Positions 9,071-54,899 of a stretch of 64,000 bases of DNA are shown here, one piece after another. Below the pieces are notes generated by a model that worked only from the letters and a program-made list of their open reading frames with translations, did no database searches and had not been told where the DNA came from. The first letter of the stretch is position 1. Each line of letters opens with the position of its first letter. A program made the position numbers and the translations under genes. This stretch comes from Sphagnum magellanicum. Its lineage: Eukaryota > Streptophyta > Sphagnopsida > Sphagnales > Sphagnaceae. The stretch spans positions 11,748,146 through 11,812,145 of the forward strand of contig CM038921.1 of the NCBI GenBank assembly GCA_021904315.1, in the 5' to 3' direction.

Positions 9071-9084
9071 CTAAGGCAGGTGTC

Positions 9085-10885: not shown

Positions 10886-10886
<1 letters not shown>

Positions 10887-10930
<44 letters not shown>
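10887..10930. repeat. (GT)n(TA)n compound microsatellite
   Basis: A short GT run passes directly into about 16 TA dinucleotides. It is a simple-sequence tract in non-coding DNA, and the small open frame across it is an artefact of the repeat. Confidence 0.95.
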
Positions 10931-10932
<2 letters not shown>

Positions 10933-30400: not shown

Positions 30401-31860
30401 CATAATGAGTTCATGACATATCCAATGTATCCAGGATTGGAACTGATCACCATCTCACAATAGAAGCAGCATGGTGAACAAGAATGACATTAGACTAGAA
30501 ACAATTGCACCCAAGAAGACAAAAAGGGGAACGAAAAATTACAATACTTCACATTGGCTGACTTCAGAAAGTGTGTACCACAAGTTTGGTCCTGAGCTTG
30601 GCAATAGTGGAATTCAGATGCTCGCGCTCCATGACCAGCTCCTCCACTCGCATCTTTACCAAGGCTGGCTCTTGCTCTGATTGGCGCCAACTTACCAATT
30701 TCTTGTGAGTGGTTTTGAAGCGGTCTCTCAAGAGATCATATTGTGCATGCAACATGTTCATATCTTCTTCTAGCAACAACTCTGCGGGGATCTCAACATC
30801 CACCAAAAAGCATGCCAAGTATGCACGTTTTTTGAGCATCTCCATCTGTCAATTCTCCAATGTTTGTTAAGATTTAAAGCAGTTTCAGATTTCACAGCCT
30901 TGAAAAACCAATGATTGAAAAAAGCAAAGATTTTGATCTGATTTTGGGTAGGATTTTGATGCTTTTTTGCGCACATGAATTCTGGGTTCGAGAAATCATA
31001 CCTCAAGAAGTAACCATGTGAGAAGGGGGTATATGATATCACAACTCCCCGATGCAATGCCTTGTCTGAATGACAGCCTATAGAATCCAATTGTTGCACA
31101 TAAACATCCCACTTTTTTTTGCTTCTCATTATCAATGACATCATGTCCATGACTTTGTGCAGATCCTGGTTACTAAGCAAAGTGGTGACTGTGCATGATC
31201 AGGAAGGATATGTAAAGAAACCCATCGACAAGAGGCCGGTAATTTAGCACTCGAAGAAGCTCTATCATCCAGTTTGTTATTGCTTCATCTGCATCAATAT
31301 CCCTTTTCTGCACCTCAAAACATCATGTGTGACAATCAATACAGAAATCATTTGCACCACCTCCTCAATCCCAACAGTCAGTTCTCCAGAGACCACACAT
31401 TCTATTGTGAAAAAGGCAAGAAAACCAAATACTGCAATTCTGTCTTTTCTACAACTATTTTTAATGGCTTGACATCCAAAACCTCTTTTGATCAGCACTT
31501 TGCAGAAGACATGGTGAGGAATAACCACCTGCACTGCAGGCTGAATTGTTGAAAGCACATTGAGGAGCACTTGCCTGAGCTGTTGTGGACTCTTCTGGCT
31601 ACACCAGGCAGCAAACCCATCACACCAAAAACCAATTCTTCACCACACAGCAATGAGCTTCAACACTATTGAATTCCTAATATTGCATTAGATTTTAACC
31701 TAATTGGAGCAGCATGCAACTATACCAAAGAAAATGGAAGGTTGTTTTGGGTTTTGTGAGAGATGATGAGAGATCTAACAAACCAGAACTCTGTGCAGGA
31801 GATGGAGTAGTCAAAAGGCGATACATTTAACAATGCAACAATTTGCTGCACTTCCACCAT
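27488..31860 (-). CDS. IFT81: Intraflagellar transport protein IFT81 homologue, about 13 exons
   Basis: IFT-B core protein; in ciliated organisms it pairs with IFT74 and carries tubulin into growing cilia. Exons, high to low: 31860-31784, 31598-31529, 31307-31222, 31077-31002, 30845-30582, 30324-30204, 29980-29844, 29716-29627, 29382-29113, 28856-28677, 28537-28218, 28037-27919, 27612-27488. Phases agree and give about 644 aa (animal IFT81 is ~676). N-terminal calponin-homology-like part: P.QLRQVLLNVL in exon 2, FRQGIASG..DIIYPLLTWLL in exon 4. Signature LKKRAYLACFLVDVEIP starts exon 5. GEDFKQYVELLRRKSSTYK in exon 10 matches the GDEFKRYVNKLRSKST block of animal proteins. The rest is predicted coiled coil. 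Odd points: a glycine run (HQGGGGGGYG) in exon 9; a missing stretch of ~30 residues before exon 10 that could be an unplaced exon; and an early C-terminus (stop at 27488-27490), unless the GT at 27508 is a donor to an exon not found. Splice ends of exons 5, 10 and 11 are the least certain. In a land plant this implies flagellated sperm. Confidence 0.9.
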
Positions 31861-32394
31861 GGCTCCCCAACTTTTGCTGTCTCTTCTGCTTCTACCCCTC
31901 CCCCAGCAGCCAACACAAGAAAACACACCCACTCTGAAATCCCTCTTCTTCTCTATGAAGAGGCTTCAGGGGACTGTTTTTTTGGGTCTTTGGGTGCTGT
32001 GTCCCAGGGTCAGGACAAGGAGCAGTTACTCTCTTGGATGAATGATTCCCATCCCAAATTCCTTACTTTCATCCTCAAGATGCTTCAGGGGATTGTGATT
32101 TTTTGGGGTCTTTGGCTGATGTGTCCAGGGGTCAGAACAAGGAGCAGTTACTCTCTTGGATGGATGATTCCCATCCCCCAAATTCCTTACTTTCATCCTC
32201 AGGATGCTTACCATCCTCTTTCGTGCCAAGACAGCAACTTACATGATACTACCTATTTTACATCAGGGTATCAATGCACAGGTACCCGTGTGGGACGGTT
32301 CTTTGACTCTGTAAATAACCGCCTGGTTTCAGAAGTAAAGAAGGGGCAGATATTTTTCAGTTCCAGATTTTTTAAAATAAAAAAATCAGAATAA
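31843..32394 (+). other. Uncharacterised open frame divergent from IFT81
   Basis: A 183-codon plus-strand frame overlaps the IFT81 start region head-to-head. It has no domain I recognise. Its centre is a ~120-bp tandem duplication, and the shared peptide theme is ASGDC.F.GSL..VS.GQ.KEQLLSWM. The second copy keeps that theme only in a different frame, so the continuous translation probably does not represent a conserved protein. It could be a real divergent gene with an intron, part of the IFT81 5' leader, or chance. I would not treat it as a confirmed gene. Confidence 0.25.
31962..32203. repeat. Tandem duplication, ~120-bp unit x 2
   Basis: GCTTCAGGGGA begins a unit at 31963 and again at 32082. 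The two units share long stretches such as GGAGCAGTTACTCTCTTGGATG and differ by scattered substitutions and small indels; one indel shifts the frame between copies. The array sits just upstream of IFT81. Confidence 0.9.
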
Positions 32395-32399
32395 AATAA

Positions 32400-34440
32400 T
32401 TTTGATAGGGCACACTCTAAATAATTTCATTACTCATATGAAAATATCATAGTAGATCAAGGAAAATTTAATAATTTCAAGTTTTTTAAATGAATTCATT
32501 TTTTTATAAAAATAATTATTTGTTTTGTTAATGTGCAAATTGACCCTAGCATGATACGGTACCAATTGTTAGACTTAGTGTAATATGGTATAGTTATTAA
32601 TTGTAACATGCCAAAACATAGCATAAAATATTTACATGGACATGAATTATTGTTGAACAAATTAAGATGTGAGATTTGAGTTAATTTCTTGAACATGAAT
32701 TTGCTAGCATTGAAATGGAATGTTCAATTCATGTAATATTAAGCTAGAAAGAAAGTATTTAATTGATCTTCATATATACATGTCGTTAAATAAATATCTT
32801 GCATAAGATAAATTTGGAAAACTCGAGAGACATCAAGTCCAATATGTTAATGAGGAATCTAGGTTTGAATAAAAAAGCAAATAGGAAATCTAACAATATA
32901 AGACACAAGGAGCCACAATATTCTATGAAAAGAAGAAGCATGTCACAAGAGAAAAAATTGTTATTCATTCATTATAAAACAATCCTACCATCCAATGAAC
33001 ATGAAATCCTCACCAAATTATTACCATCATATTATTAAAAAATGTATACTTATTTTTTACAATATAATTGCCATTGAATAGGGCGCTAAGTTTGCAATGG
33101 GGGTGGAGTGTCAATTGGTGCTTGAAGGGTGTACCATTTCAAAGATTTTACAATGAACCTCTTGGTTATAATTAATGTTGGGTGGGTATATCGATGGAAC
33201 CTTGATATATAGACCAATATTTGTCCTGATATGAAAGAATTGAAATGCAATAATTGCATTGTACTAATAGTTGCCTAATATGAAAATTAAAAACGATTCA
33301 TTACTAATACCTATTTAAAATGGAATTTTTATTTTAAAATAATACTAGTAGTAAGATAGTATGATTTTTGTTTTAGCGAATCGATACCAATACTAGGTTG
33401 GTATGAAAATCTTGAAAAGAGTTTGATACTAATATGAGTTGGTTTGTTCAAAAGTAAATACCTACCCGACATTGGTGATAATCATGACACAAATGTCGTG
33501 TTTGTCCCAACTTCAACCAAGATCAATTTTGATTTTTATTGAATTTTGAGTATTTTTTATGATTACATATGTTGATTACCATTTATGTGTAGATTATCAA
33601 ATATCGGTACAAATTTTAACTTTCTTTATAGTAGTAGCCTTCCAAGGGCAACCCATTTCACATATGGCATTTTATTTTCATCTTTGATCACTAGAGGGAA
33701 ACTTGTTGTTTTCAACAAATTTTTGTAAGTTAATAGTGTCATTTATAAAGTATAGTTTTTCTTTTAATGGACAGACACAAATGAAAACAATACCTTCCTT
33801 TCCCCAAATGCTTCATAAACTTGAATTGCAAAAATTGAACATATTTGAAATTGAAATATGTGATTCAATTGCATGATTATAAACAAAATTGTAACCCATG
33901 CGATCATGATGCACCCTCTTCAATCATGTCATGCTCGTACATGACTTCATACATGATGGTTAGTTACGGGCATGCCCATGTGCACTTTTAAGGTTAATGT
34001 ACGGTCTTAGGTGACTGTACATTATTAGGTACTTAGGGTTTCAATTTGTTGGCGACTGTATAAAAGGTTAAGCCCTTCCTTTCTCTTTTTAGTTTTTCTA
34101 AAATTCCTTTATCAACAGAGTTTCCTCCATAATTAGATAGGATTTCTAGATGCTCACGGCGGCCATTACATGGCCACCGTCTATGTACATTACATGTTTT
34201 TCTTTCTTTGCAATTCAATTCTAAAAAAAAATTACTCTTTATTGCTTCATGTTGAAAACAACATGTTTCTTGTGCTTTTGGAGTTCTTGAGTTGTTGCTA
34301 CTAGTGTTGTTACTGGTGTTGTTGGAGGGATCTTGCATTGTTATGTATCTACCAACCAACAAAGTAGGTTTCAAACCTCTTCACCCTTTTTTTTTCTCTT
34401 TCTTACTCTCTTTCTCTTTCTCTCTCTCACGCAGAAATAG
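32400..34440. other. AT-rich intergenic DNA, possible relic LTR
   Basis: No gene is supported; the frame at 34033-34374 (-) matches nothing I know. A TATAAAAGG at about 34059-34067 followed by a CT-rich stretch could be the promoter of an old LTR belonging to the retrotransposon downstream, but no second copy exists beyond its 3' end to confirm it. Confidence 0.35.
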
Positions 34441-34499
34441 AGGAGGTAGTCTTCAAGGAAGGTCTTGAAGTTGTCGAGTAAAAAAAAAACAAAAAAAAT

Positions 34500-34905
34500 T
34501 GCAACGTTGCTACAATGCGAGTTGCAAAGCTCCCATGATGTGAACTACAACACCACCATCATTGTAGCGTTGTCGCGTCACACGTTGCAGCATCACCATC
34601 GTTACAACATTGCCATGTCGCGTGCTGTAACACCACCATTGTTGCAGCGTTATCGCGTCGCACGCTATAGCATGATGCCATCATTGCAATGTTGTTGCAT
34701 TGCACGTTGTAACACCGCCATCGTTACAACGTTGCCATGTTGTGCGCTGCAACACCGCCATCGCTACAGCGTTGCCATGTTGCACGCTGTAACACCGCCA
34801 TCGCTATAATGTTGCCGCGTCGTGCGCTGCAACACTACCATAATAGTGTTGTAGTGCAGCCATCGCTGCAACACAGGGTAGCGAGCTATAACGTTGCCAT
34901 CGTTG
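34500..34905. repeat. Minisatellite, ~40-bp unit, about 9-10 diverged copies
   Basis: Units with the theme CACCATCG-TTGCAGCGTTGCC-ATGTTGCACGCTG-TAA recur across about 400 bases. GCAACACCGCCATCGCTAC and GTTGCCATGTTG are the clearest shared words. Frames stay open in two registers because unit length and composition allow it. It lies about 0.7 kb upstream of the first gag-like codons of the retrotransposon and may be part of its leader or an unrelated array. Confidence 0.7.
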
Positions 34906-35600
34906 TCACATTAGGATGTCCGCTCGACATCTGACTTTTGACGTCCAACGTTTGTCGGCTTTTATGCAACATTAGACGACGTCCGTTGTTGCCCATGAAC
35001 TATTGTCCATAAACTTTCGTCTGACGATTATTGGAATTTTGTCCGATTGTCACCCTACGTCCTATCGTCCTGCAACTGCCATCCTGTGGTCCTGCGTTCT
35101 ACCATCTTGCGTCCTATTGTTCTACTATCCTGCTTTTCCATCCGACGTTTGTTTGACTTTTGTTTGACCTTCGTCCGACCTTTGTTGGACATTCGTTTGA
35201 CCTTCGTGCCACATCTGTTCGTCACGGGTCATTCGCAACGACGCACTGTATTCTTCAAATTGTACATTATGTTAGAATTTTATAACTAGTGCTGTGTATT
35301 ATCGCAAAATTTTGGGGCATGGAACAACACCATGTCCTCGGATGATGAGAGCACTATTGTTTAGTTGAAGCCCAGGTATTAGTTACGAAGTAACACACAA
35401 TCCTTTGAGCCAACTTCTTTAAGCTCACGATCTTCACGACAATACCATCAAACATCTACAACACCACCATCATCTAATATAACTCCTACCAAAAATTCAG
35501 GTTCAGGTTACACTACATCAATAGTACATCAAAATCCATTTGGAGGGGTTAATTAGTGGGGTACACCTGCTGTTACACCTGCTTTCACACCATCACCATA
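34906..35600. other. Probable retrotransposon leader, no gene
   Basis: From 34920 to 35230 the words GTCCGACG, CGTTTGAC and CCTTCGTCC repeat loosely. From 35290 the sequence becomes ordinary up to the gag start. No primer-binding site complementary to initiator tRNA-Met was recognised. Confidence 0.4.
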
Positions 35601-35604
35601 TATT

Positions 35605-36720
35605 TTGCTCCAAGTCGTAACCTCTACACCCATATACACCATGGAGGTCAGCAGTTCCTCTAGGAGCATTGAAAAGTTTAACGGAAGGCCAAGTACCATT
35701 TTTTTGAGGGAGTTCAAGGCAACTTTCTCAATTGTGGTTTGTGAATTAGAGTTCAAGTATGGCGTTAATTACACCAAGGCGTTTGCATTCAAACAATTGG
35801 CCCGTTATGTGCACTATGAGGCATTGGATGTTTACGAACAACATTCTACAAGGATTTTGGGTGTCACCTAGATTCCCAATCCAACTTACGCCACAGCCAT
35901 TGCCACTGCCTTTCAAACTGCATTGTAAGTTGCAATTGCACATCATGGGACTATGCCCAATAATCCAGGCCCGGTACCTACCTCAATAAAAGTAAACCTT
36001 TCTCCTCAACAACTCATTGTTGCTACCACAAACATTCCTCCCACCACCGATGCGCTAGCTTTTGCTCATCCAATGAAGGAATTTTTTCGAGTTCTTGAGT
36101 TGGAAAATCTAGTTAAGAGTTTTGAAAAAATTTTGCAGCTCGCCACCTTTTTTCAACAAAAGGATGAAACCTTGAAAATGCTCTACAATAGGCTTCTCAA
36201 ACTCAAAAAGGATACCCAGAGCATCACAGACCTGAATGCTGCCCACTGGTATCTTCGTTCATTGGAAGGTACTCCATCACTCCATGCGCAAGTTTTGCAA
36301 CGGGTTTTTGCAGAATTTAGAGATTCGTACACTTTGCTGGATGTATATAACATTTATGAAAAGTTGGAATTGGTTCATGCACACTATGAGGCGAATATTA
36401 TGAGGCCTCCATCACGTTCAAAACCTCAGCCTACACTAGTCGCGCCAACCAGATCATCACATTCTTCTTCAAGGGCTAAAATAGTGCACTTGGCTACACC
36501 CATCCTACCTTCTTGCAACTATTGTGGCAATCCTGCCCACAAAGCTAGTGAGTGTAACATTCCTTCCAAGGATCTTTTTATGATTATTGTGGGAAAGAAG
36601 GACATCAGGAAGCTATCTGTTTTGCCAAGTTCTTGAAACAGAAGCAACTTGGATTACCACGGCAAAATCTCTTAGCATCTTCCACTGTCCTTCAACCGAA
36701 AGCCAAGGCACCTTAGCCTT
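35605..36720 (+). pseudogene. gag: Retrotransposon gag (capsid/nucleocapsid), broken
   Basis: A capsid-like region starts near 35641 with SSRSIEKFNGRPSTIFLREF, typical of the F.G....W...F. segment of gypsy gag proteins. It continues from 35953 in the same frame after a stop. A first zinc knuckle, CNYCGNPAHKASEC (C-x2-C-x4-H-x4-C), lies at 36514-36555. A second, DYCGKEGHQEAIC, lies at 36579-36620 but in another frame and with its first cysteine changed to tyrosine. A lysine-rich linker with coiled-coil character follows at 36732-36950. The gene would package the element RNA if intact. Confidence 0.8.
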
Positions 36721-36976: not shown

Positions 36977-38029
36977 ATGGTTGGGGAGTATGTTTTGTCC
37001 AATGCACACAATTGTAGTATCACACTAGAATTTGCCACTTCTTTTTGCCCTTCCTATGTCGCGACACAAGAGGCTAGTGTGGCACCTAGAGTTTCTGCCA
37101 TTAGGCAAGTAATTCAAATTGATGGACTCGCATCTGGTTCAAGTCCTATTACCAAGGCTAGAGGAGCTCGAGTAATCATGCCACAATCTTTTCGTCCTTT
37201 TAACACGAAAGAAGAACGCACATTTTTGGCGAGGGGGGAGGAGACTACTACACCATAAGCTATTAGGGCATCAAATTTTCGTGTCCCAAGAATACATGTA
37301 CATTAAGAAAACACACAATTTTCCACTGCTTAGCTTATGGAATGCCAACTTCAAATGCGTGAAGTGGTGTAAAAGCTTATGAGTACACCATTGTTTAGTT
37401 ATCAAGATTTGAAGCTAAGCACCAGGGACATAATTACAACACTAGAGGATACCTTGAACACTACATCAGGTCCTCTACCAATCTTTGATCCACATGTTAC
37501 AGAAGTCCCATCCAACACCTTGGAGAGACATTTGATTGGCTCACATGTTGTAGATGGCGTTTGTAATTTGGTCACTAATTCTAGCATGGTTAAATTAGTG
37601 GGTTCTCCTACCTCTGATTCTACATTCACATATCAGAAGGGAGTTAAGAATACTTCATTTGTGGATTTGTTACTCAGCAAAGGTGTTGTGGATAGCCATT
37701 TTCTCCACAAAGTTTCTCATTCATTTCCGAAGGTGGTGCCTAGTAAAAGAACTTCCATCACCACCGAAGTTGCCATTGTTGACAATACTGGGTCATCAAT
37801 CCAAGTGGGAGGACATACACCCAGAGTGGTACATCTTGATACAAGTGCCCAACCAGTGATTCTTGGAGTTCAATTTGCCAAGAAGATGGGCATGCTTGAT
37901 TCTAAACTACGGAAATCTATGTGGCAGATTCGCACTACTAGTGGGAACGTAGAAGAGGTACTTGGGGAAAGCTTGGATTTGATTACACTTAACTTCAATG
38001 AAGGTATAGATCAGGAGTTTTGCTTATAG
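36977..38029 (+). pseudogene. Retrotransposon aspartic protease region, broken
   Basis: Same frame as the downstream methyltransferase and RT. The active-site block is VVHLDTSAQPVILGVQFAKK with its aspartate codon at 37838-37840. The usual D-[ST]-G reads D-T-S-A here, so either the family uses alanine or this copy is mutated. The sequence ahead (37379-37740) is a poorly conserved linker. The frame closes with TAG at 38027-38029 in a region that otherwise continues. Confidence 0.7.
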
Positions 38030-38470
38030 GTCAAATGTTTAGTCACCAATGCCACCAATTATGATGTGTTCATTAGGCAAGAGGTCCTGTTTCCACCAGG
38101 TTTCATTATTGACAACTAGTTTGAACATGCGTATTACCCAGTGGATTGGGAGACTGATGGCCACCACCTGGGATACATACCCCTTGATTTACATGGAAAC
38201 CATAGTCCTATGGCTCACCATTGTATGCTCAAGGAAACACACATTATTTCTTACATCCAACAAGCTAACCACGAGTGGATAGAGGGAGATGGAGAGGAAA
38301 TAGCTTACGCCCAAGCTATTGAAAGCTTGAGGGTGATTCCCACTGACATTCAACATGGACCAGAGGTTTTACAAAGGTTCAAAGCAACCCACGAGCCTTT
38401 GTTCAAAGCTCTGTCTAGTTTTGAGAACATGGAAAGCCATGGCGAACTGATTAAGCTAGTACTTCGTTAG
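38030..38470 (+). pseudogene. Linker between protease and methyltransferase in pol
   Basis: Continuation of the same pol frame with stops. It reads WETDGHHLGYIPLDLHG, then a segment containing CMLKETHIISYIQQ, then GPEVLQRFKATHEPLFKALSS before the stop at 38468-38470. Clear retention of protein-like composition across about 140 codons suggests a functional domain or linker of the polyprotein. I do not recognise a named domain; it could be an N-terminal recognition part of the methyltransferase or the end of the protease unit. Confidence 0.45.
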
Positions 38471-39430
38471 CTAATTGCCTGGACACCACCTAAGGAGGGG
38501 ATTACATTATTAGAGCTCTTTGGTGGTATTGGTATAGGTCTCGAAGCCCTATTATAATCAAGGATGGTGGTTCGGAGGTATTTCTACTTAGACATTGATC
38601 CTACTATAAGGCAAGTGGTGGTATCGAAAATGAAGGAGTTCACAACCAGATTTCCACAACACTTTGCAACCACCGCATGGAAGGTTAGTTTCACATTTTT
38701 GCCCTCTAACATACAATTAATTCAGAAGAAACATATGGAATTACTTGGCTTCGTCGACCTCATCATTTCAAGTTGGGAATGTCAAGGATTTTTAACAGCT
38801 AGATTTGGAAAAGGCTTGAGTGACACAAGATCTGGTCTTTTCACGGACATGATACGATTGATCACCTGGGCTCAATCCATTTCTCCTACACTTGGTTATG
38901 TAATTGAGAACACCCCTTTTTAGCTTGATGAGAGGGAGAAAGTCCAGGAGCATTACACTCTGGTTAAACATTACCTTGGAGAGCCGCTCCTACTTGATGT
39001 AGCATAATGCAGTTCCTATGTGCACTAGTTGCGCAATTGGTGGACCAACTTGGCACCACTCTCAGTTCTGTAGCTAGTTCTGAAATACACTAGCAGGGAC
39101 CCCAACCTGCAAGTTTCTCACATATTGGATGATCAAAGTTCTTACCAACCAGTTACAAGGCAAGAGAAACCTCCTTGGTTTCCTACGAACATAATAGGAA
39201 AACCAAGAGGTGCTTAACCCACCTTTGTCTCCTTCCCAAGAGCACATGCCTTTCAGGGAGATGGACCAAGCCTAGTGTATCGTCATGCTTCAGCCACTTG
39301 GGATGAACCAAGCCCAGAAGAAAGAAAAAGGGCTATGGGGTTCCAAACTGACACTACTAGTCACATTAAGGTGACTAGATTAGAACGTAATGTTCTATTG
39401 GGGAGAGGCATGGACTTGAACTCCTTACAT
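38471..39430 (+). pseudogene. C5-cytosine DNA methyltransferase domain inside the retrotransposon, broken
   Basis: In the pol frame, about 320 codons. Motif I: LLELFGGIGIGLEAL (38507-38551), the SAM-binding loop. Motif II: RRYFYLDIDP, with the acidic pair that would hold the SAM ribose. Motif IV: SSWECQGF at 38771-38794, with the catalytic cysteine codon at 38780-38782; the usual Pro-Cys-Gln is Glu-Cys-Gln here. Then FGKGLSDTRSGLF, similar to the GLSDPRG.LF segment of Dnmt-type enzymes. Motif VI: YVIENTPF, glutamate at 38906-38908 (usual ENV). Motif VIII-like: LLLDVA.CSSYVH.LRNWWTN. Motifs IX/X-like: SPEERKRAMGFQ and LERNVLLGRGMDLNSL (to 39426). The motif order is unpermuted, so it is not DRM-type. 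Closest plausible relatives are Dnmt3-like or retroelement-borne enzymes. At least five in-frame stops make it inactive. Function would be methylation of DNA, possibly of the element itself or of its target site. Confidence 0.88.
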
Positions 39431-39960
39431 GGTTGTTGGTAACTTGTGTACTTTTTCAAATGTACACAACACCAACATTGATTCAATCAGCTTGCAGTTC
39501 TGGCGATGCGACCACATGGCACCCTAACCAAATACACTTACCTATCTTCAACATTCTACATTTCACTTTTAGTGTTGGGGGGGGAGGAGGTACCATGTAA
39601 TTTGACTCAAGTTGTGTCTCATACACTTGGAGGTACATCAGTTTTAAGAGAAATAATTACAACCTTTTATGAATTTGCACAATTGGATAATGGGGAACCC
39701 AATACACCAAGTTCTTCAAACACACTTTCCAATTCCATTCCATGTGTTTCTAACTACCATTTCGTTATGGGGAACTAGCTCACCAAGAAGGACAGAGACC
39801 AAGTCACAAACTTGCTAATTAAGTATGAGAATGTGTTCGCATTCTTAATGAAAGATTTAGGTAAGTGTAAGACCATGCAGTTCTCTATAGACTTTACAGA
39901 TGAAACATCCGTCTATTGGAGGAGGCATAGGTTGAGCAAGCATGAGTGAAAACTGGTAGA
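39431..39960 (+). pseudogene. Linker between methyltransferase and RT in pol
   Basis: The same reading frame continues through stops from the end of the methyltransferase into RT. It holds an open stretch at 39506-39778 (GGEEVPCNLTQVVS..LGGTSVL) and then LTKKDRDQVTNLLIKYENVFA, the region that normally precedes gypsy RT (the counterpart of L...E..L.EL...Y.DVFA). A single uninterrupted frame from protease to RT shows that the methyltransferase is part of the polyprotein and not a later insertion. Confidence 0.7.
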
Positions 39961-40735
39961 TGAAAGATGTAAAGAGCTCCATGAGGCTGGTCTCATTCAG
40001 CCATTAAGTTCTAATTTCGTAGACACTACAGTAATGTTAGCAAAGAAAGATTCAGCTAAACTATGGACTGAGAAAAGGATGTGCGGGGATTATAGGCCTT
40101 TGAACCTCGTTACACCTCAGGATAGGTACCCTATGCCCATCTTTGAAAAATTGTTTGATAGCATTGGAGATTCAAACATCTTCACAATTGTGGATCTAAG
40201 GCAAGGTTTCAACTAGATTGTGCTCGTTGCGAAGGATCACAAGAAAATGACATTCCATGGAAGTAACAAGTTGTGGGAATGGCTTGTGATGCCTTCTAGA
40301 TTGAAAAATGCACTTGTTTTCTTTCAATGAATCATGGCCAAGTTCTCGAAGGGGCAGATTTCCTAAAGTGCTACATAGATGACGTCTTAGTGCATAATAA
40401 CGGACTCTTGCAACACTTGGTTCATCTTGAGGAGTTATTCAAGAGGCTTCATAAATTCAATATGAAGATCCATCCTAAAAAGTGTGAGTTTGCTATCACC
40501 TCAGTAATCTACCTTGGACACAAAAACTTTCCAAATGGTATTATGGTTCATTGGGCCAAAGTAGTAGCCATTTTGGAGATGCTCAATCCTACTGATGTTC
40601 ACACGTTGAAGAGCTTCATCAGACTATGTAATTACTATAGAATTTATGTCCAAGACTTCAATATTATTGCTCATCCTCTTAATGCATTGTTAAAGAATGA
40701 TGGTGTTTGGACATGGAGTGATGAGGTTTAGGAAG
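39961..40735 (+). pseudogene. Retrotransposon reverse transcriptase, broken
   Basis: RT blocks in order: KRMCGDYRPLNLVTPQDRYPMP (40075-40140), FTIVDLRQGFN with the first catalytic aspartate, WEWLVMPSRLKNA (usually MPFGL.NAP), and FLKCYIDDVLVHN with the YIDD box at 40372-40383. IHPKKCEFA and YLGHKNFPNGI follow. A one-base loss near 40335 separates the first and second halves into different frames. The TAG at 40216 interrupts DLRQGFN.I. The set of motifs is that of Ty3/gypsy RT. Confidence 0.9.
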
Positions 40736-41200
40736 CTTTCAACACAATCAAGGAAAAGCTTTTAGAGTTCCCCATTTTAAGAAGACCTGATTTCAACAAG
40801 GTCTTCATTCTACACACTGACTATAGTGCTTTTGGTATTGGAGTTATTCTTGGCCAACTTGATGAAGAAGGTAAGGAATATGTTATCACCTATGCATTTC
40901 GAAGTAACAACAAGGCTAAAAGTAATTACTCTTCATACAAAGGGGAGTGCTTTACTATTGTATGGGTCATCATACATTTTAGGCCCTATCTTTATGGCAC
41001 CAATTTCACTTTGTATACTGACCACCTGCCTATCAAGTGGTTGATGACCAACAATAAGCTTACTGGTAAGTTAGTTCGTTGGGCATTTATACTTCAAGAG
41101 TATGAGTTCAAGGTTATTCACCGACCTAGTATTACACATCAAAATGCAAATACCATGTCATGGAGACCCCTCATTACCTCTGAAGATTTTTCAGAAACCA
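40736..41200 (+). pseudogene. Retrotransposon RNase H, broken
   Basis: After a TAG at 40729-40731 the frame reads ILHTDYSAFGIGVILGQ, the first RNase H aspartate block (usually TDAS..G.GAVL.Q). It continues with YSSYKGECFTIVW, where the glutamate of the active site is visible, and YTDHLPIKWLM with the second aspartate. FKVIHRPSITHQNANTMS closes the domain (usually YRPG..N..AD.LSR). Confidence 0.88.
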
Positions 41201-42590
41201 AGCAAGATTTTGACCAGATTCCAACAACACATGTATCTAATGCATTTAGTTATATCGCACTACTGCAATGTAACCTGGTTGAACATCCCATTGTGGATAT
41301 ATGGGAGGACTTGGACATTTTGAGGTTTCTTCAGCATGGGGAATACCTTCCCCAAATTACATCAAGTCAGCGAGATCACATACAACAACGGTCTAAACGC
41401 TACTCATGGAAGGACAATCACCTCGTTTGTTGCTTACCACAAGGCAACATAGTGGTTCCACCACCACATGAACGGTTTGGTCTTATTCAAAAGGTACACT
41501 CGGAGCTTAGACACTTTAGAGTTAAGCGTACCTATAGCCTTCTCACTCCTCATTACCATTAAAGAGGTATGTATGCTCAAGTCCAAGACGTCATTGCTAA
41601 GTGTGAACAATGTGATAGTGTGAGAACTTCTTTTTCCTTTCGATAGCTCATGCTTTCTCCACTCCTTATTCAGGGCATGTTTTATCGTTGATCATGTGAT
41701 TTAATTAAAGAATTACCACAAAGCTCCAGGGGTAATGTTTACATCATGATTATGATTAAACATTTTTCAAAATGGGTTGAGCTTGTTGCACTACCGGACA
41801 AGTCATCACACAACACCATCTAGATTTTCTTACAATAGGTTCTAAGTAGGTTTAAGGCTTGTGCTGAGTGCCTTACTGATCAAGGATCAAAATTCAAGGG
41901 AGAATTCCAAAACCTACTTGACCATGCTCTCATTAACCACCCTCGGATTTCAAGAGATCATCCCCAAGCTAATGGCCTTGTAGAAAAGATGGTTCAAACA
42001 TGCAAGACAGGACTTTGGAAGATTTACCTCATTAAGAACAAAGAGGATTGGGACCTGGCCCTCCCTTACATCGCCATGGGTTACAGGATGTCCAAACATG
42101 CCTCTTTATTTCATTTCTCTCCTTACTTTTTACTTTTTGGGAAACATCCCATTCCACCATCTTCCATTGTTGCTCAAATGGACCAAGTTGTTGATTTGGA
42201 CTCCCTAGCCACTTGGGCTAGGGTCATTGCAAAAAGCGCTGCTCTATTCAGGAGGGTTATGCCCATGGCCATGGAGAACCTATCCATTACACAACATCGA
42301 AACACCTTATGGTATGCACACACACGAGGTGGCAATTACAAACCTAAGGTGAAACAATTTGATGTTAGTGATTTTGTGTATCTCTAGTGGCAACCCAATG
42401 ATACTCTAAACACTTCTTTTTGTCGCACTATCTTGAAGATTAAGGCAATCAGGCCTTCAGGTGTGTTGGAGTTGCAAGGAGTTGACGGATGCACAAATCG
42501 AAATCATTCCAAAAATTGTACACCCTACCACCTGCCAAACTTGGATCCTACCATCATCACATTGACTTGGATTCCTCCACTTGATTATCC
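41201..42590 (+). pseudogene. Retrotransposon integrase, broken
   Basis: The zinc-binding HHCC region shows VHSELRHFRVKRTY, then CEQCDSVR, so both histidines and both cysteines are kept. The DDE core follows: a first aspartate in DLIKELP after a stop, CLTDQGSKFKGEF with the second aspartate (41870-41910), and DHPQANGLVEKMVQTCK with the catalytic glutamate near 41983. The GKHPIPPSS segment (usual LL.GR.P..P) follows. Stops at 41562, 41645, 41821 and 41837 break the frame. A chromodomain was not seen; a PHD finger stands in its place. Confidence 0.88.
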
Positions 42591-42744
42591 ATGTTAGGTA
42601 TGTCAGAGGACAAACGATGCTAAGCGAATGCTGCTTTGCAATAATTGTAATGGTGGATACCATTTCTTCTGCTTCAAGCCGGAGTTCATTCAAATTCCCG
42701 TTAGCAATTGGTACTATTCATCATGTTCTTTTATAGCACCTTGA
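42591..42744 (+). pseudogene. PHD zinc finger at the C-terminus of the integrase polyprotein
   Basis: In the integrase frame, the sequence runs C-stop-VC, then about 12 residues, then MLLCNNCNGGYHFFCFKP, about 10 residues, then WYYSSC. This is the Cys4-His-Cys3 spacing of a PHD finger, including the aromatic W before the last cysteine pair. The stop TAG at 42597-42599 sits where CxxC needs a residue, and one of the last pair of cysteines is Tyr, so the finger is damaged. PHD fingers usually read histone H3 tails, so this may once have directed integration, as chromodomains do in chromoviruses. Confidence 0.8.
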
Positions 42745-42797
42745 TTCCTACTCAGACCATGCCACGTTTTTCCTAGCTCGGGTTTGGGGGGGGATAC

Positions 42798-44860
42798 ATG
42801 AGAATTTCATCTCAGCCTCCTCTTGTGCATTGTATATACATATGTGCGTGAATATTTTTTTGGTTGATTAGTTTATACCTTTGATTGGCTTTAGTCTTTT
42901 TGTTTAGTAGAATTTACTACGGATTTACACCTTTACGACACCGTACGTCATGACACTACACATCACAACAATCATGACCTTTCCAAAATCATTTAATATG
43001 TTGCAATTTCACTCCAAATGATTCAAAAATCCAAAGTGGTTGTGACTCCAAGAATTGATATGTTAACCGTGGCAACAACTTCTTTTGGTTCCACCTTCTA
43101 TTTGTTATTCATCTTTAGGTTGCACTTGAATTAACAGTCACATCATAACCCCAATGTTTCCATTGTGGAAATAGTCATAACATTCATTCCCACTCTTCCA
43201 TCCACCAAAACACTCTTCAAAGGTATTCTTTTGCAAACCACTTCCACTAGTGATGCACATGTGTCAAATTTAGCTACAGCCGAATGGACTTCCTTTTCTT
43301 GAGGTTTAATGTGATGTGCACTAAGCCCTCCTTACAAGTTTCACCTTGCCACATGAATCATGGCTACCAATTACCCAATGATAGTGTTGACATTTTTGGT
43401 GTTCAAGTCTTTAATAACATACCATTGCTTTTAGCTTGCACAAATGGAAATGTTTTGTTTATAACCTAATCATCTTTGATTTATTTACTTCCCTTTTTCA
43501 CAAGTCATCTCCTTCATTTTCTTATGTTGAGAATGGTGGTTTGCCTGATGTTTACCATGGATGGTATTTGTCCAAACATTTATTTATGTTGTGTAAATTG
43601 TTTTTAAAACTTCAATGTCCAAAACACATTTTTTGCAATATTGTTTGTTGGATCATGCACTATCTTTTTAAAGAACTACAATTTATTGTTTTTGTTTTTC
43701 ATGCATAGTCTAATCAATAAATTTTTTGCATATTTTGATGCAAACTATGCTATGGAAAAATCTTGTAATGGGTGTGTTGTTTTATTTAACAATGACCCCA
43801 TTACATGGTTGAGTTGTTAGCAAACTTGCACATCACACAACACAACATAATTGAATACATTGTTCCATGTGCCGATGATAATCAAGTTGCCATTATCATG
43901 ATTGAAATTTTAAAACTCTCCACAAGTGCATGAAACTTATTGATTAACAATTTCATTTACTTTGTGAGTTTGAATTCAATCATGAAATGTTTACTACTTA
44001 CATCCTTATTTAGGATTAATATGCTAACATTAGAACAAAATTCTTCTATTTAACAACATGCATGTGAAAACCTTTATGGAAAATATATTTACATTAGGCC
44101 CCCACATGGGCGCAAATAAATATAATCCTCCCAACACCTTGAATTTGTTGGTTCTACCCATAGGGAAGAGGCTACACATTGGTGTGGAATTTTGAGGTAA
44201 AATTTTGACTCATAGTTGCCATGAATGTGGAGGTAACAAGTGGATACATTGTGTGCATGACATTTGGAGAGGTTGTTATTTGTTTTATTTTGTTCATTTT
44301 GCACCATGCAACAATTAGGGTTTAGACTTTTGCGTATCATGATTGTTTCCCAATCTAGTTAATGCACATTTGTGGCACCTTTCTTTTATGGTCAAATCTA
44401 TTCTTGGAAATAGTTGCACAAGAATTCTTAAGGTGCATTTCATAGCTTAGTGGTGATGATGTAGGTAGGAAGGCACATTGATGATTATTAGATGATTCTC
44501 ATGATTCTTTTTTAAAATCATGAAATTAAGAGGTGGGGGTGGTCTTTGTATAATAATTTTGCAAAGAATTCTTATGTTTTGATTGTGAGGTTTCAATGCA
44601 TGTCAAAGTTTGCTAATGTTAATGTAGGATGGAAAACACAATGCTGAGGCTTACCAATTTTTTAGTGATTCTTTCTCCATATGATGAAATCACAAGGTGG
44701 GCCTTTCTTTGTTAAATACATATGTTGGTAACAAGCTTGCAATGTTGGAGTCTTTGATCTTGCTTGTTGGTGCCAAGTACTGAGTTACAAATATCTCAAG
44801 TAACTATAACGTGGTAAAAGTATCTTAAGTAACTCGATAAGAAGTTGATATACAATAGAG
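42798..44860. other. Intergenic region 3' of the retrotransposon, no gene seen
   Basis: A sequence starting TGAGAATTTC directly after the polypurine tract could be the start of a 3' LTR, but no matching 5' copy exists in the window. The open frames at 43284-43469 and 43436-43708 (+) do not match a known family. Confidence 0.45.
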
Positions 44861-44869
44861 CTGAAGTTC

Positions 44870-45025
44870 GTATGGGTTGCTAAAGAAGCAACATGGTTCA
44901 CATGGGTTGCTAAAGAAGCAACATGGTTCACATGGGTTGCTAAAGAAGCAACTTGGTTCGCATGGGTTTCAACTGGAGCACAAATTGCTGGCAAGAATGA
45001 ATAAACCCCCAGTACACCACAGCGG
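44870..45025 (-). repeat. Inverted partial copy of PIG-S exon 2 with a 30-bp triplication
   Basis: Read on the minus strand, the frame gives APVETHANQVASLATHVNHVASLATHVN-like repeats. PIG-S exon 2 encodes AAIETHANQVASLA at 46018-46059 on the plus strand. At DNA level GCTAAAGAAGCAACTTGG followed by T[C/T]GCATGGGTTTCAA is the same in both places bar one base, about 1.1 kb apart in inverted orientation, and weaker similarity extends to about 80 bases. The unit CATGGGTTGCTAAAGAAGC.. is then repeated three times with a 30-bp period at 44870-44965. Transcription through both arms could make a hairpin RNA. Confidence 0.8.
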
Positions 45026-45225
45026 TCTGCGGCTTCATCCACCGCTTCTGGAAAACCCTCGAAAGCAGCTCACATGTACGCGGTGCGGTGCGGGCGGGAG
45101 GGCTATTACGCAAGAACAGCAACAAATCTGGACACCGTTAGCACCACGGAAAGCTTTAGCAAGACTGCAATCGCAAAGTACTGTAAACCCAAGAACGCAT
45201 GATCCCAAACGAAAAACGGAAAACT

Positions 45226-45290
45226 GAAACCCTAGGCCAAGAACTCTACCTCCCCAAGTCGTCCCACCATTTAGGGTTTCTCCCTTTCCG
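45226..45290 (+). promoter_or_regulatory. Telo-box-like sites upstream of PIG-S
   Basis: GAAACCCTAGG at about 45225-45235 and TTTAGGGTTTC at about 45271-45281. AAACCCTA boxes are common in promoters of constitutively expressed plant genes near the transcription start. They lie about 330-390 bases upstream of the PIG-S start codon. Confidence 0.4.
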
Positions 45291-45380
45291 ATCTACCCTC
45301 CTCCTCCTCTGCGACCTACATTTTGTCACATTTTTCGACCCAAATAACGCAAGCCGCACTCGCCTGCCTAAAAAATGTCA

Positions 45381-45399
45381 GGAGGAGGAGGAGGAGGAG
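45381..45399. repeat. (AGG)n short microsatellite
   Basis: Six AGG/GGA triplets in the probable PIG-S 5' region. Confidence 0.8.
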
Positions 45400-45613
45400 A
45401 AAGCTGGAGATTTGCAGATTGTTTTTTCTGAAGTTTGGAGATTCTAAGAAGAGGAAATTTCATTTCCCAAGACGATAGATATACCAGCAACATTCAAGCT
45501 TTGCCAGAAACACCCACCCATCTCGCCAAACAGAAACATTAGTTTCACAAGGGAAATCGCCGGAGAGAGAGAGAGAGAAGCAAACTTGGGAGTAGTTTTG
45601 CTGGGTCTTTTGG

Positions 45614-45878
45614 ATGGAGGTAGTAGTAGAGAGGAGCACTCGCTCGACACCACCTGGACGCAAGCGCTTGCTCATCACACTCTCCGTTGTCCTCTCATTC
45701 CTCTTGGGTCTGTTGTTCTGCACACACCCCATTTTCCCATGCAATGCAATTTCTCACAGTGATTTTATTTATGGATGTGTTTGATTGAGAACTTCTTCTT
45801 CTTCTTCCTGCAGCTTCTGTTTTGAAATTGCCTATTCGGAAGAAGAAGGGTCTCCTCCTGCACATGCATTGTGAAACT

Positions 45879-45935
<57 letters not shown>

Positions 45936-48900
45936 TGATGATGCTTTTTATGGGTGGGCACAACAGGTACTCCCTTGTGGTGGAAATCAACAGAAGTTTA
46001 TCGGTCTCCACTCCCATTTGCTGCCATTGAAACCCATGCAAACCAAGTTGCTTCTTTAGCTCTCGCCCTGCCATGTGACCTCCATGTCATTTTTGTTGCC
46101 CTTCCCATACCACCCGAGGAGGAGGATCAGCAGCACTTGCAAGTTGTTGTTGACCAAATTCAGCAGCAGATTAGTATTATACTTGCACACAAAAAGCAAT
46201 TCAACTCTTCGGAAAGTTGTGCATCTGGTTTCCAAGTACATGTCACTCTTGATGCTGAGAATGTGTGTCTCAGGAGCAGATCAGCAGCAGGAGATCAGCA
46301 GAAGAATAAGGTGGCCAAGTTTTGGCCCTGTGGACTTGCCACTGTAGATTCTGACCTGTGGGAGCTGCTACTGGAATCATCATCTGATGATGATAACCTT
46401 GTTGATGAATTCTTCTGGAGCTTTTCTAAGGGTGAATATCTCGCCACAGGTGGTTGCTACACACTGGTGCTTTTTGATGAAGATCTTCTGAACATTTTTT
46501 CAAATGAGAAACCGGGTGAAGCTACTGTGGTTGAGGTAGGAAACCAGGTCAATCCTATCAGCAAAGAAGGCAAAGGGAAGAGGAGGAGGAGGAGGAGGGT
46601 GGTGGGCAAATACAGGCATGCTTGGATGATCGGTCCTGAATTAGGGATTTCGTCCTTTGGAAGAGATGTTGCTTCAGATATAGCAGATCTCGCAGTCATG
46701 TATTTTAGTCATGGGGGAAGATTGACTGGGAAAAATGTGGTTGTGGAGGACAAAGAGGAAAGCATGCCACTGTCGGCTGATGGGAAGGCAATTTTATCCT
46801 TCTCACTTTTGAATGCAGAGCCAAGTGATTGGATCTTCGATTGGTATGCATCTATCCTGAAGCTGCCTGATGCTGTTACTACAATTTTCTTTCTTGTGCA
46901 GATTGCTTGAATCAAGCCTAGAGATCTGTATGCTGGGTCCAACCTAGGATAAGGTGTTTATTCTTTTAAGAAAGAGCCTGATTTTTTCCCTTATGAACAA
47001 CATTGTCATTACGAATCCCACGAGTCTTGAGAGATGTCCTTGTTCAGCAGGGGTGAGTGAGCTTGGATTGTTCATAGGCTTGCTACTTTCCACTGTTGTT
47101 CTCCTGCCATATTTATGTGGGTGAAATTATTAGTTTTTGCAAATGGGAAGTTTTGCATTCTCCTGGCTCTTGGGAATGGTGGAGGAGGAGGATTCATCAA
47201 AACTCATATTGGTTGTGGATTTGGTGATTGGCCTCATGGGGGGAAAAAGGGCCTTTGAGGAGGTGGAGCAGCGTTTTTTGCAACCACTGGTAGAGGCATT
47301 ATGGCCTTTCGCACACCTCTTTGTTGAGAGCCAGGTTTGCATCCTGATACCATTCTGGTGTCAAGGGAGATTACCAAAGCTCATAAAGGGGTTGCTTAGT
47401 GTTTATGGGTGGAATGAAGGTGGCATTTTACTCGAAGTGTGCATGTATATGACAGCTAAGTGGAGTCTATGAAGAGGATGAAAAGTGGGAGGGGGGGAAT
47501 CTTTGGTAGGTTCTGTACTACACACCAAAGGCAGTGCAGTCACATTGGGATGCAGCACTGCAGTCGCATGTGGTGCCCTTCAAGCAGCTTCCATTCTTTG
47601 TAACCCTTTCTCATCCTCCAAATCATTGGGTTTCCACTTACTTCTGCAAATTCTTTTTCCTTCTCCCTTCTCTAGACTTGAGAATCCCGGATTTTGAAGA
47701 TGTTGTTCCCAGTAAATACATCTTGCCACATCCTGCAGATGGATGAAGATACCCAACGGTGCAAAGTAATCCTAGTTGCACAGTTCTTCCTACTAACATG
47801 TCCTTTTGCAGTTCATGGATGTGCTTTGATAAGTGGATTAAGTGCTTGTAGCATTGGAGGTTCATGTTATGAAATTTATGCAGGTTAATGCAAATGAGTG
47901 GCATCTTGACTCATCAAGTGCAGCTGCTGGCCGCTCCAAGCTCCTTCACTTTGCAATGTAACAACCATGACTCATGTCGTAGACCTATGTTGGAATTCCC
48001 TTCACCATGCTGCCTGCAATGGCTTCCATGTCTGTGATATAGTCTCAAATACATATATGGTTTCTCCACATTGCTTGATCCTCTGTTAGCACAGAAATAT
48101 TGAGACCCAACTTGCAAACTGAAATTTTGTCTTGGTGGCAATTTGCTGTAGTTATGTTCCTGCAGCCAAAGAGTGCCCTTTGCACCTGCAATTATCCACT
48201 GGCCGTATTTCACAGACCAATGGTTTCACCTCTCCTGTAAGGAATGAGTGTTCTCCTTTTGCACTTCTTTCAAGTACACTCTTTTGTCCCATTGTACTGC
48301 AAATTTAGCTCAAGTTTATTTAACTAAGTGCAAAGTGCTTTTACTTTTACAAGTTCACATATAACCCTTAAACAATCTCAGAGCTCTGGAGTTGGTGGGA
48401 GAGGAGAGGTTCTATCATGTCCAATGGTTATGGAGATTTAATAGTTCTCAGAAGTCTTTTAGAGCGGTTGATAAGCTGAGTGCAGGTGGCAGGGGTGGGG
48501 TGGAATAATTGTTTGGAATCCACCTGGCTGTTTGGGGAGCTCTACTGATAACTCTACGGCACACCAACTCTCGACTAAGGTCCATCTCTAATACTTCGAG
48601 CCATCTGATTTTGTGGATTGGTAATGCAGTTCACATCTGTGCACCACTATGTGTCTGGGAAAAAATGAATCCAAGCTTTAACACAGGGTTCACATACCGT
48701 GATGTTTTTAGTAACGAGTACTTGCATTGGTGCAGGTGTCAACATCTTTGGTGTTGCTAAATTAGTCAAGAGTATCTCTCTGTGCTACTGGCCTTTTGGT
48801 TGTTAGTTCTGTAGTATGGCATCCTGAACAAACTGAAGAGCTTGAAATGTTGTTGGCCAGGAGTTGGAACCTTTGATTGGAGTGGTTGTGGCACAGTTAA

Positions 48901-50466: not shown

Positions 50467-50925
50467 GTTTATTGCACTGTTACTCAAGCATTGATACACA
50501 CAAGAGGATTTGGTAGCACTAAGAAATGTTGGGTTGGAATCTTTAATCAGTGCAACAGCATGTATATGTTTCATAGAGCATTTTATTGACATTGATTTTT
50601 AGGGGCAGTAAAGAGTAGAAATGCTTTAATTGAGGGGATCTCATGTATGGATAAGATTTGCAGTTTTCATAAAATTCATACAGAGTTTGACAACTCTAAA
50701 CATATTCCTCAAGTAGTAGCAGCTGAAAGCTCACTTAGGGGAAGGTTAGATCAAAACAATTTTCTGCCACTGACCAGTTTCTTCAAAGTTGTGCATTTAG
50801 TTGTGACAACTAATGTTTTGGAGCTTTAGAAGCTTTAGAAGCTTTCTAAAAGAAGAAAGAGTTGTAGAAGGTATGCACATTGGTGTTGGTCAAATGCCAC
50901 AATTGATTTCAAGCTTTTTGCTTTT
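50467..50925. other. PIG-S 3' flank / start of Penelope-like element
   Basis: Presumably PIG-S 3' untranslated region at first, then possibly the N-terminal part of the retroelement. Frames at 50647-50829 and 50813-51031 have no domain that can be recognised. No GIY-YIG motif was found. Confidence 0.4.
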
Positions 50926-50928
50926 TTT

Positions 50929-52318
50929 TTGTTTGTTTGTAAAAAGTTTTATGTTTCTTCTGTTTTCTCTGAGCTTAATTCTCCTGTTGGTGCATATGTG
51001 GTCTCCAATCTTGCCCAATCTGATATTCTGAAATTTCATCTCTCTTTTAATAAGGCTCATAATTTTAAAGGTGTTAAGTGTGGCCCTCGTCTCCCCTTTC
51101 TTTGTGCAGTTTGGAAGTTTCATAAAGATCCAATTAAACCTAGATTTATCTGTGCAGCCAGCTCTAGTTCTCTGACTGATGTTTCTAAGTGGCTGTGTTC
51201 TTTCTTCAAAGCTATGTTTCCTACAGTCAATGACCTTTGGGTGTCTAAACTCAAAAAAGCAGATGTTCCTTTTGATAGTAGTTGGATTCTCAATGACTCT
51301 ACAGGAGTGGTGGAGGTAATAAATAATGTTACTCGCTCGAGATCTGAAATTGATAAAGCTTCCCCACTTCTGTTGCAGTCTTTTGATTTCTCAACTCTAT
51401 ACAATAAAATTGACCTAGTGGATCTAAAAGCTCATATGAGAGTTCTGATAAATAAAGTGTTTAATTGGATGCTGAAGCTTCATCGTTTTAAGTTTTTGAT
51501 GGTTCAAAAAACAGCTTTGAACTTTAGGTTTTTGTGGCTGAAAAATGAAGCAGAGATCAATTTGTTTGAAAATCTTCATAGCTTCAAAGTTGCAGAGGCT
51601 TCAGATTTGATCTCTTGGCTGGATTTCTTATTAGACAATTTGTTTCTTTGTTTTGGTCAGGGTGTTTATAAAGAATGCATTGGTATCCCCATGGGTACAG
51701 ATTGTGCGGTCTATTTGGCTAATTTCTATCTCTTCACCTATGAGTTTGATTTCATTAAGCGTCTCTTGAAGAGTAACACATGTCCTGTTGTGCTTCATAG
51801 TTTGTCCTTGGTGTGCAGGTTTGTAGATGATCTTTTTGTTCCTGATTTTCCAGCTTTTGAGAACTTCATGTACCTTTACCAAGACTCTTTTGGTAGCGGC
51901 ATATATCCAAAAACCTCTTGCGAGTTGAATTGTACATCTAAAGGCTTCTCTTGCAATTTTTTGGATCTAACTGTGAGCCAGAGTCCTCAAGGTTTATCCT
52001 GTGACATTTTTGACAAACGCTCTCAACCAGAGTATGCAGGTGTATTCAAATGATTAGAATGCCTCATGTTCATTCCAATATCTCAATGACTGCAAAGCTG
52101 GGGGTTATCAATAGTCAATTTTACAGATTCTTGAGACTTTGTAGTTGTAAGAAGTTTTTTGTCTTCCAGATGGTCAGTCTTATTGTCTTTCTGAAGGCAA
52201 AAGGCTACCCTTTTAAAGTTCTTCTAAAGAGAACTGGAGGGTTGATTCTTAAAGAAAAATTCCTGTTTGGAATTTCCGCTCTTGGCATTTTCAGAATGAT
52301 TTTGCTTCGGGTCATGTA
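50929..52318 (+). pseudogene. Penelope-like element (PLE) reverse transcriptase, one frameshift
   Basis: A 374-codon frame (50929-52053) continues after a frameshift near 52045 in the frame 52050-52319. RT blocks: LPFLCAVWKFHKDPIKPRFI (fingers), LQSFDFSTLYNKIDL (first catalytic aspartate), ECIGIPMGTDCAVYLANFYL (the IPMG block), VCRFVDDLFVPDF (R-[FY]-x-D-D active site), SCNFLDLTV, and after the shift MPHVHSNIS...GVINSQFYRFLRLC, a thumb-like block. This series is typical of Penelope-like RTs rather than LTR or LINE elements. No GIY-YIG endonuclease and no RNase H were seen, so the copy may be 5'-truncated or from an endonuclease-less lineage. It starts about 460 bases past the PIG-S stop codon, on the same strand, and its single frameshift over 460 codons suggests a fairly recent insertion. 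I cannot exclude another class of non-LTR RT. Confidence 0.75.
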
Positions 52319-53500: not shown

Positions 53501-53506
53501 GGTCAT

Positions 53507-54780: not shown

Positions 54781-54797
54781 GTAGATAAAGGGCCGGG

Positions 54798-54873
54798 TTT
54801 CTAGAAACCCGCCCGTCCCCGTGATTTCTAGAAACACCCTAGAAACTTCTTGTTCTAGAGAATTCTCTCTGAA
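54798..54873 (-). promoter_or_regulatory. Heat-shock-element cluster of the HSP20 promoter
   Basis: TTTCTAGAAA occurs at 54798-54807 and again at 54825-54834. A continuous run of alternating GAA/TTC pentamers follows at 54842-54873 (GAAACTTCTTGTTCTAGAGA, then AATTCTCTCTGAA). This is a textbook array of nGAAn units for trimeric heat-shock factors, placed directly upstream of the expected transcription start of the minus-strand gene. Confidence 0.9.
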
Positions 54874-54899
54874 ATTGAGATTTTAATTTTTTTTGCTGA

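Follow-up and report, generated by a model that had tools for sequence, protein, structure and literature searches.

A DNMT3-like cytosine methyltransferase domain in a Ty3/Gypsy-type polyprotein of mosses and liverworts

We found that a Ty3/Gypsy-type retrotransposon of Sphagnum magellanicum carries, between the protease and the reverse transcriptase (RT) of its polyprotein, a domain of the C5-cytosine methyltransferase (MTase) family that both sequence profile and predicted fold show to be DNMT3-like. The element lies in a stretch of 64,000 nucleotides (hereafter the window); in and around the MTase we read all three forward frames and the open reading frames (ORFs) of both strands. Related sequences from mosses and liverworts have the same layout, and this supports the view that the MTase is a standing domain of a Ty3/Gypsy-type polyprotein in land plants. 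The copy in the window is a dead pseudogene, with in-frame stops and frameshifts.

The element in the window

All parts of the element lie on the forward strand. The gag-like region (35557..36636), read directly in frame 1 and broken by stops, has an uncertain start and contains a CCHC-type zinc knuckle at 36514-36555; Pfam scores zf-CCHC at only E 0.39 on 35929-36633, and in relatives a gag with zinc knuckles lies upstream of the protease. The aspartic protease region (37373..38029, frame 2) matches PF13975 at E 0.0099, below the cut-off, while the homologous part of P0032 (recovered proteins carry P numbers) matches it at E 2.9e-7. A linker in the protease's frame (38120..38470) leads to the MTase; it is a single open frame in P0123, P0064 and P0032, and P0123 gives an 82% alignment with window positions 36977-39004.

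The MTase domain spans 38471..39490, with an approximate end, and has six in-frame stops inside and one more just upstream. Its motifs I, II, IV and VI and its end blocks, named in an earlier sequence-only reading, are where that reading put them and in the frame of the protease. The same reading had taken 38471..39430 as one frame, which holds to about 39427; at about 39428 the frame of the window departs from that of its relatives, and the last 60 or so bases of the domain are in frame 1 instead of frame 2. It had also placed the MTase in frame with both protease and RT, which is correct for the protease side (37373-38470) and for the N-terminal part of RT (39950-40216) and wrong for the rest of RT. 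In motif IV (WECQGF, 38774..38791) a Glu replaces the Pro before the catalytic Cys.

A run of eight G (39577..39584) marks the MTase-RT junction. Beyond it lie the RT (39950..40728; frame 2 to 40216, frame 1 from 40300), with RVT_1 at E 2.7e-10 on 40300-40728 and a 77-81% alignment to P0122, and then RNase H with the start of the integrase zinc-binding region (40732..41562; PF17917 at E 5.2e-33, PF17919 at E 2e-27). The integrase (41563..42591) is broken by stops and matches rve_3 at only E 0.026, on 41839-42384; it is 54% identical over 182 codons to the integrase of L001 ORF2 (rve, E 1.2e-13), a relative described below. A PHD finger follows the integrase at the C-terminus (42592..42726); with one stop read as X, it matches PF00628 at E 1.9e-9. 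The finger also occurs in P0071 from S. magellanicum (E 8.4e-10) and in L001 ORF2 (E 4.3e-10). The Ty3/Gypsy order of gag, protease, RT, RNase H and integrase is present in L001 and in the window, where gag and integrase are weak.

Comparing 31000-35899 with 42300-48299, we found no LTRs around this degraded copy, just an opposite-strand simple-repeat match and some short fragments attributable to chance. In 34001-36500, neither of two primer-site patterns for initiator Met occurred at up to 3 mismatches. We also considered CpG depletion as a trace of self-methylation and rejected it, since the observed/expected ratio of the element (0.33) is not below that of the window at large, whose 16 blocks of 4 kb range from 0.14 to 0.71, and there is no element-specific signal. 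Thirteen of the blocks lie at 0.14-0.32; the other three (8001-12000, 32001-36000 and 52001-56000) lie at 0.58-0.71. Tandem repeats occupy 9151-9755 (unit of about 94 bases), 10381-10594 (about 67) and 34555-34836 (about 40).

Read through with X at the stops, the MTase domain of the window matches PF00145 at E 1.4e-4 and 21.8 bits, against a curated cut-off of 22, and the less decayed P0124 matches at E 8.7e-13. A match to this family was one of the checks that the sequence-only reading had proposed, and it was found. Of 28 recovered proteins that we scanned, 26 exceeded the PF00145 cut-off; the two exceptions, P0071 and P0187, are patchy gene models and gave no match. Chance resemblance to the motifs is ruled out by the PF00145 match together with a relative at E 1.8e-162.

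By sequence profile and predicted fold, the nearest solved relatives are the catalytic domains of animal DNMT3A and DNMT3B, and the motifs are in the unrearranged order seen in DNMT3. The Pro-Cys-Asn catalytic motif of DNMT3, as printed for DNMT3A, is replaced by Pro-Cys-Gln or Glu-Cys-Gln, so we call the domain DNMT3-like rather than DNMT3. The 50 entries listed include none of DRM2, DNMT1 and DNMT2, which says nothing against them. The structure model, of P0121, has low confidence before residue 81, at 181-200, 231-240 and 311-350, and after 420, and its catalytic loop is poorly predicted (pLDDT below 50 at residues 187-193).

Three further frames in the window deserve mention. On the forward strand, a 404-residue open frame at 50839-52053 has an FVDD core and other RT-like stretches and gives no Pfam match at E 0.01; judged by eye, it could be a reverse transcriptase of the Penelope-like or another non-LTR type. 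A 322-residue frame at 45942-46910 (forward strand) matches PIG-S (PF10510, E 4.2e-16) and probably represents one or more exons of a host gene a few kilobases downstream of the element. On the reverse strand, 5514-6107 has a weak match to a Na/H exchanger (PF00999, E 3.2e-5, 23.4 bits, cut-off 26.2) and is likely a host exon.

Relatives, layout and constraint

A protein search with the window read-through gave 231 matches at E ≤ 10 among 896 candidates, the best of those listed reaching E 1.8e-162 at 84% identity. A profile search gave 557 matches at E ≤ 0.001 among 7995 scored candidates, and a profile of protease plus MTase gave 55 at E ≤ 1e-5 among 7998 scored candidates, the last nine of which (P0191-P0199) are weak and do not imply family membership. 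Among the matches listed, the named moss hosts are Sphagnum compactum (P0051), S. balticum (P0094), S. magellanicum (P0071), S. troendelagicum (P0172) and S. fallax (P0187), and the liverwort hosts are Calypogeia fissa (P0032, P0158, P0173) and Marchantia polymorpha (P0155-P0157, P0159, P0161, P0163, P0164, P0167, P0174, P0175). Judged by these relatives alone, the window would most likely come from Sphagnum or a close relation of it.

Two carriers are filed as bacterial: P0124, in a 'Candidatus Obscuribacterales' record, and the 'Synechococcales' contig L001. Because L001 holds a whole Gypsy pol, we take both as eukaryotic DNA in mis-binned metagenome-assembled genomes (MAGs). L001 is contig CADCWO010000201.1 of a cyanobacterial MAG in a species-genome collection and contains most of a eukaryotic Gypsy element; we judge its presence there to be contamination of a reference genome. 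The search of genome contigs gave two other loci, L002 and L003, both bacterial and 28% identical. Among viral contigs, no relative emerged when element-specific queries were used in two scans, and a trimmed-profile scan gave 18 loci at 27-34% identity, all of them scored and with ORFs read for L004.

Using the L001 domains as probes, we detected a protease in 45 of the 199 recovered proteins, and in 39 of these the MTase follows it. The other six are P0179, P0181, P0186, P0188, P0189 and P0190; five end in the protease or the linker, P0181 departs once it has entered the first residues of the MTase, and not one of the six extends to RT. None of the 45 passes directly from protease to RT, a count obtained with MTase-containing queries, which are biased to MTase carriers and would miss MTase-free sister families. 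Five proteins hold MTase and RT together (P0004, P0085, P0122, P0156 and P0187, the last two being predicted gene models). Taken together, these counts indicate that the polyprotein has the MTase as a standing domain, and the same layout across relatives rules out a one-off insertion. In other words, the search for copies that lack the domain, with the query bias just described, did not refute the sequence-only reading, and its proposal of a land-plant Ty3 lineage with a C5-MTase as a core polyprotein domain is borne out by the PF00145 matches and by the 39 of 45.

L001 is an intact relative, read over 7185 bases of a 9285-base contig, and begins inside gag. Its ORF1 (1162 residues) contains zinc knuckles, protease and MTase, with PF00145 at E 6.8e-12 and PF13650 at E 7.8e-4 only, below the cut-off. 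ORF2 (1047 residues), in the frame of ORF1, contains RT, RNase H, integrase and the C-terminal PHD finger. The two are separated by a TAG followed by CAATCA, which fits UAG-CARYYA, the type I readthrough consensus known in plants from TMV (PMC2754532). We saw this motif in L001 only, and at equal base frequencies a hexamer fits CARYYA by chance with probability 1/512. Three members of the L001 subclade (P0150, P0154 and P0165) have the same end residues as ORF1.

Twenty-four proteins with the Pro-type motif reach the end of the MTase and are without RT, RNase H and integrase. Their ends may be stop codons, contig edges or gene-model ends; 17 of them end 80-149 residues past the MTase (including P0157, P0159 and P0164 of Marchantia and P0158 of Calypogeia), and seven end 12-74 residues past it (Marchantia P0155 after 22). 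In P0122, which is of Sphagnum type, no stop interrupts the junction, and a single frame leads from MTase to RNase H. Where the window has its G run, 3 recovered proteins end in ..GGGTM and 24 continue with ..VPCN, and the junction in Sphagnum-type elements may reflect either recoding or ordinary indel decay.

Two well-supported clades contain both Sphagnum and a liverwort. Clade A had support of 100/100 in both trees; it comprises the window, Sphagnum and P0014, joined in the second tree by Calypogeia P0032. Clade T, with Marchantia, Calypogeia and Sphagnum and the motif PCQGHT, was supported together with P0152, P0153 and P0160 at 99/100 and 98/100. In the first tree, clade A is sister to 16 further rows (95/93); in the second, where both outgroup rows sit on long branches that join each other, its placement is unresolved. 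Forcing A, T, P0152, P0153 and P0160 into one group was marginally rejected (p-AU 0.023); A plus T without those three gave p 1.9e-5, a grouping that omits kin of clade T. The pattern of A and T in these sequence trees would fit two sub-lineages predating the moss-liverwort split or a later transfer between hosts. For one clade-A member, one clade-T member and L001, identities over RT-RNase H are 55, 56 and 66%, and over the MTase 36, 43 and 46%; the clade-T member and L001 are the closest pair by both.

Comparison of codons gives a separate measure of conservation. Between the window and L001, MTase codons agree at 49/66/34% of positions 1/2/3 over 310 codons, and 0 of 2000 permutations were as extreme. 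Both RT pieces, RNase H and integrase have a codon-position pattern like that of the MTase, and the permutations as extreme numbered 7 of 2000 for the protease (76 codons), 29 of 2000 for the linker (30 codons) and 6 of 2000 for the PHD finger (46 codons). This pattern indicates that the element, and the MTase with it, spent most of the history between the window and L001 under protein constraint.

Possible roles of the methyltransferase

Our preferred reading, to which we assign an even chance, is an old Ty3/Gypsy-type lineage whose packaged MTase methylates the element's own cDNA and whose PHD finger guides integration. It starts from the domain content and order, the leaky-stop motif of L001 and the conservation, as read in the sequences. 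By sequence, the polyprotein of the lineage runs from gag through protease, DNMT3-like MTase, RT, RNase H and integrase to the PHD finger. Where the layout is split, as in L001 and probably in some of the liverwort clade, Gag, protease and MTase would be produced together, and RT and integrase would depend on recoding at the junction. Since the MTase would be made with Gag while RT needs recoding, the enzyme would enter the virus-like particle at Gag-like amounts. There, ahead of integration, it would methylate cytosines of the new double-stranded cDNA. The PHD finger, which would read histone H3 tails, would guide the integration step. The likely gain is that a new copy would arrive already resembling methylated host DNA. 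Packaging, cDNA methylation and PHD targeting are the steps that we infer. Self-methylation of cDNA, as proposed by de Mendoza, appears to be the most likely role, with the balance about level. We hold more tentatively to a fuller version, in which the lineage predates the parting of mosses and liverworts and comprises at least two sub-lineages, a leaky stop sets Gag-like amounts of MTase, cDNA is pre-methylated, the PHD finger steers integration, and the sub-lineage with Glu has perhaps changed its chemistry or target.

The catalytic loop bears on the activity of the window's clade. Among the 199 recovered proteins, the catalytic Cys is retained in 119 of the 121 readable motifs IV; in place of the Cys the search pattern accepted just C, Y, R, S or F, with a limited set of adjacent residues, and some losses were possibly missed. 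The residue before it is Glu in 72 of the 121, Pro in 44 and another residue in 5. The Glu carriers are the clade of the window and P0178, with the liverwort P0032 and P0014 among them; within clade A, Glu is present in the window and in 10 of 11 recovered proteins, P0071 being without the motif. Replacing Pro by Glu takes at least two base changes and is thus not ordinary decay, and as the Glu is also common to a moss and a liverwort copy, it was probably fixed while the family was active. The Glu-Cys-Gln loop of clade A suggests that the predicted activity or specificity may differ there. P0178 (ECQGHS), which is outside the trees, has P0127 as its nearest relative over long alignments (52% over 258 residues), and its Glu is either an independent change or a misplacement.

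It is doubtful, though worth weighing, that the MTase was kept for another role, in DNA or RNA binding, RNA methylation or chromatin targeting, with clade A perhaps catalytically dead. The substitution of Glu for Pro in more than half of the readable motifs, liverwort P0032 and P0014 included, would fit such a role, and the SymbioLINE DNMT is reported not to have methylated DNA in yeast and may act on RNA (PMC5890265). However, the catalytic Cys is retained in nearly all motifs readable with our selective search pattern, aligned rows that span the ENV-type motif retain its Glu, and the tree clades other than A have Pro wherever motif IV is readable.

We consider it unlikely that a Dcm of phage or bacterial type, and not DNMT3, was the ancestor of the MTase. 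Such a descent would suit the Pro-Cys-Gln, in place of Pro-Cys-Asn, of clades other than A, as well as the match of P0124 to phrog_116 (E 2.7e-24); profile A5 also scores printed DNMT3A stretches (49.9 and 62.8 bits) and the best phage ORF (52.3 bits) much the same.

That the substrate of the MTase is host chromatin or the integration site instead of cDNA, with the PHD finger as its targeting module, seems to us quite improbable. The window, P0071 and L001 do all have a PHD finger on the integrase side, but it and the MTase are at different ends of the polyprotein, and in L001 they are in separate ORFs. Finally, the window copy is a pseudogene, as would suit a functionless domain that a single copy acquired by chance insertion or by capturing a host gene as a passenger, but we give that reading next to no credence: the MTase has the same position in two well-separated bryophyte clades and further relatives, with a conserved codon pattern, and the shared layout refutes an insertion in one copy, a refutation that does not take in the 'without function' part.

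Known elements and significance

Gypsy elements bearing a DNMT3 were described in 2018 from the charophyte alga Klebsormidium nitens as KnitGypsy-Dnmt3 (PMC5890265), and for retrotransposon DNMTs de novo CG methylation was demonstrated and cDNA self-methylation proposed (de Mendoza et al. 2018, PMC5890265). The sequence-only reading had cited that work for captured MTases in dinoflagellates and Klebsormidium, in agreement with the paper. Like the domain here, that of KnitGypsy-Dnmt3 is of DNMT3 type, without the DRM rearrangement, and inside the Gypsy Pol frame; its key residues are reported as conserved and its repeat structure as DIRS-like, and the main text names no PHD finger (PMC5890265). 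Compared by description, our elements differ in their moss and liverwort hosts, the PHD finger, the gag-side MTase and leaky stop of L001, and the Glu-Cys-Gln of clade A. No Klebsormidium name occurs among the relatives listed in the protein and profile searches. SymbioDIRS-Dnmt3 and SymbioLINE-Dnmt of dinoflagellates are likewise retrotransposon-borne MTases, and the SymbioDIRS enzymes are reported to methylate CG; unlike the Gypsy elements here, they belong to DIRS and LINE elements, reported to be just distantly related to Gypsy (PMC5890265).

Animal DNMT3A and DNMT3B have Pro-Cys-Asn where our domains have Pro-Cys-Gln or Glu-Cys-Gln, and the domains described here are embedded in a retroelement polyprotein. 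Chromoviruses are Ty3/Gypsy elements with a chromodomain, a histone-reading module, at the C-terminus of integrase. The elements described here resemble them in having such a module at the integrase end and differ in that a PHD finger replaces the chromodomain and an MTase is added.

In listings of the open-access literature, we found no earlier report of an MTase-bearing Gypsy element in land plants. One published paper states that such elements are absent from land plants; the literature considered includes Morozov et al. The accessible portions of PMC6338049 and PMC12344493 contain no land-plant report, and those of PMC6453930, PMC9246332, PMC10952607, PMC8616336, PMC9516144 and PMC9915684 do not mention one. 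At the level of sequence, then, a known kind of element is extended into land plants, and three features are absent from the available text of the 2018 account (PMC5890265): the Glu-Cys-Gln loop, the PHD finger and the placement of the MTase on the gag side of a leaky stop. None of the three had been pointed out in the sequence-only reading.

Elements of this kind can be mistaken for host genes in surveys. For example, the UniRef name of S. troendelagicum P0172 is DNA (cytosine-5-)-methyltransferase, and that of Marchantia P0157 begins alike. Plants silence transposons by cytosine methylation, and an element with its own DNMT3-like enzyme would invert this usual picture. The presence of such elements in Marchantia polymorpha, a model plant, makes the use of these enzymes to the element directly testable.
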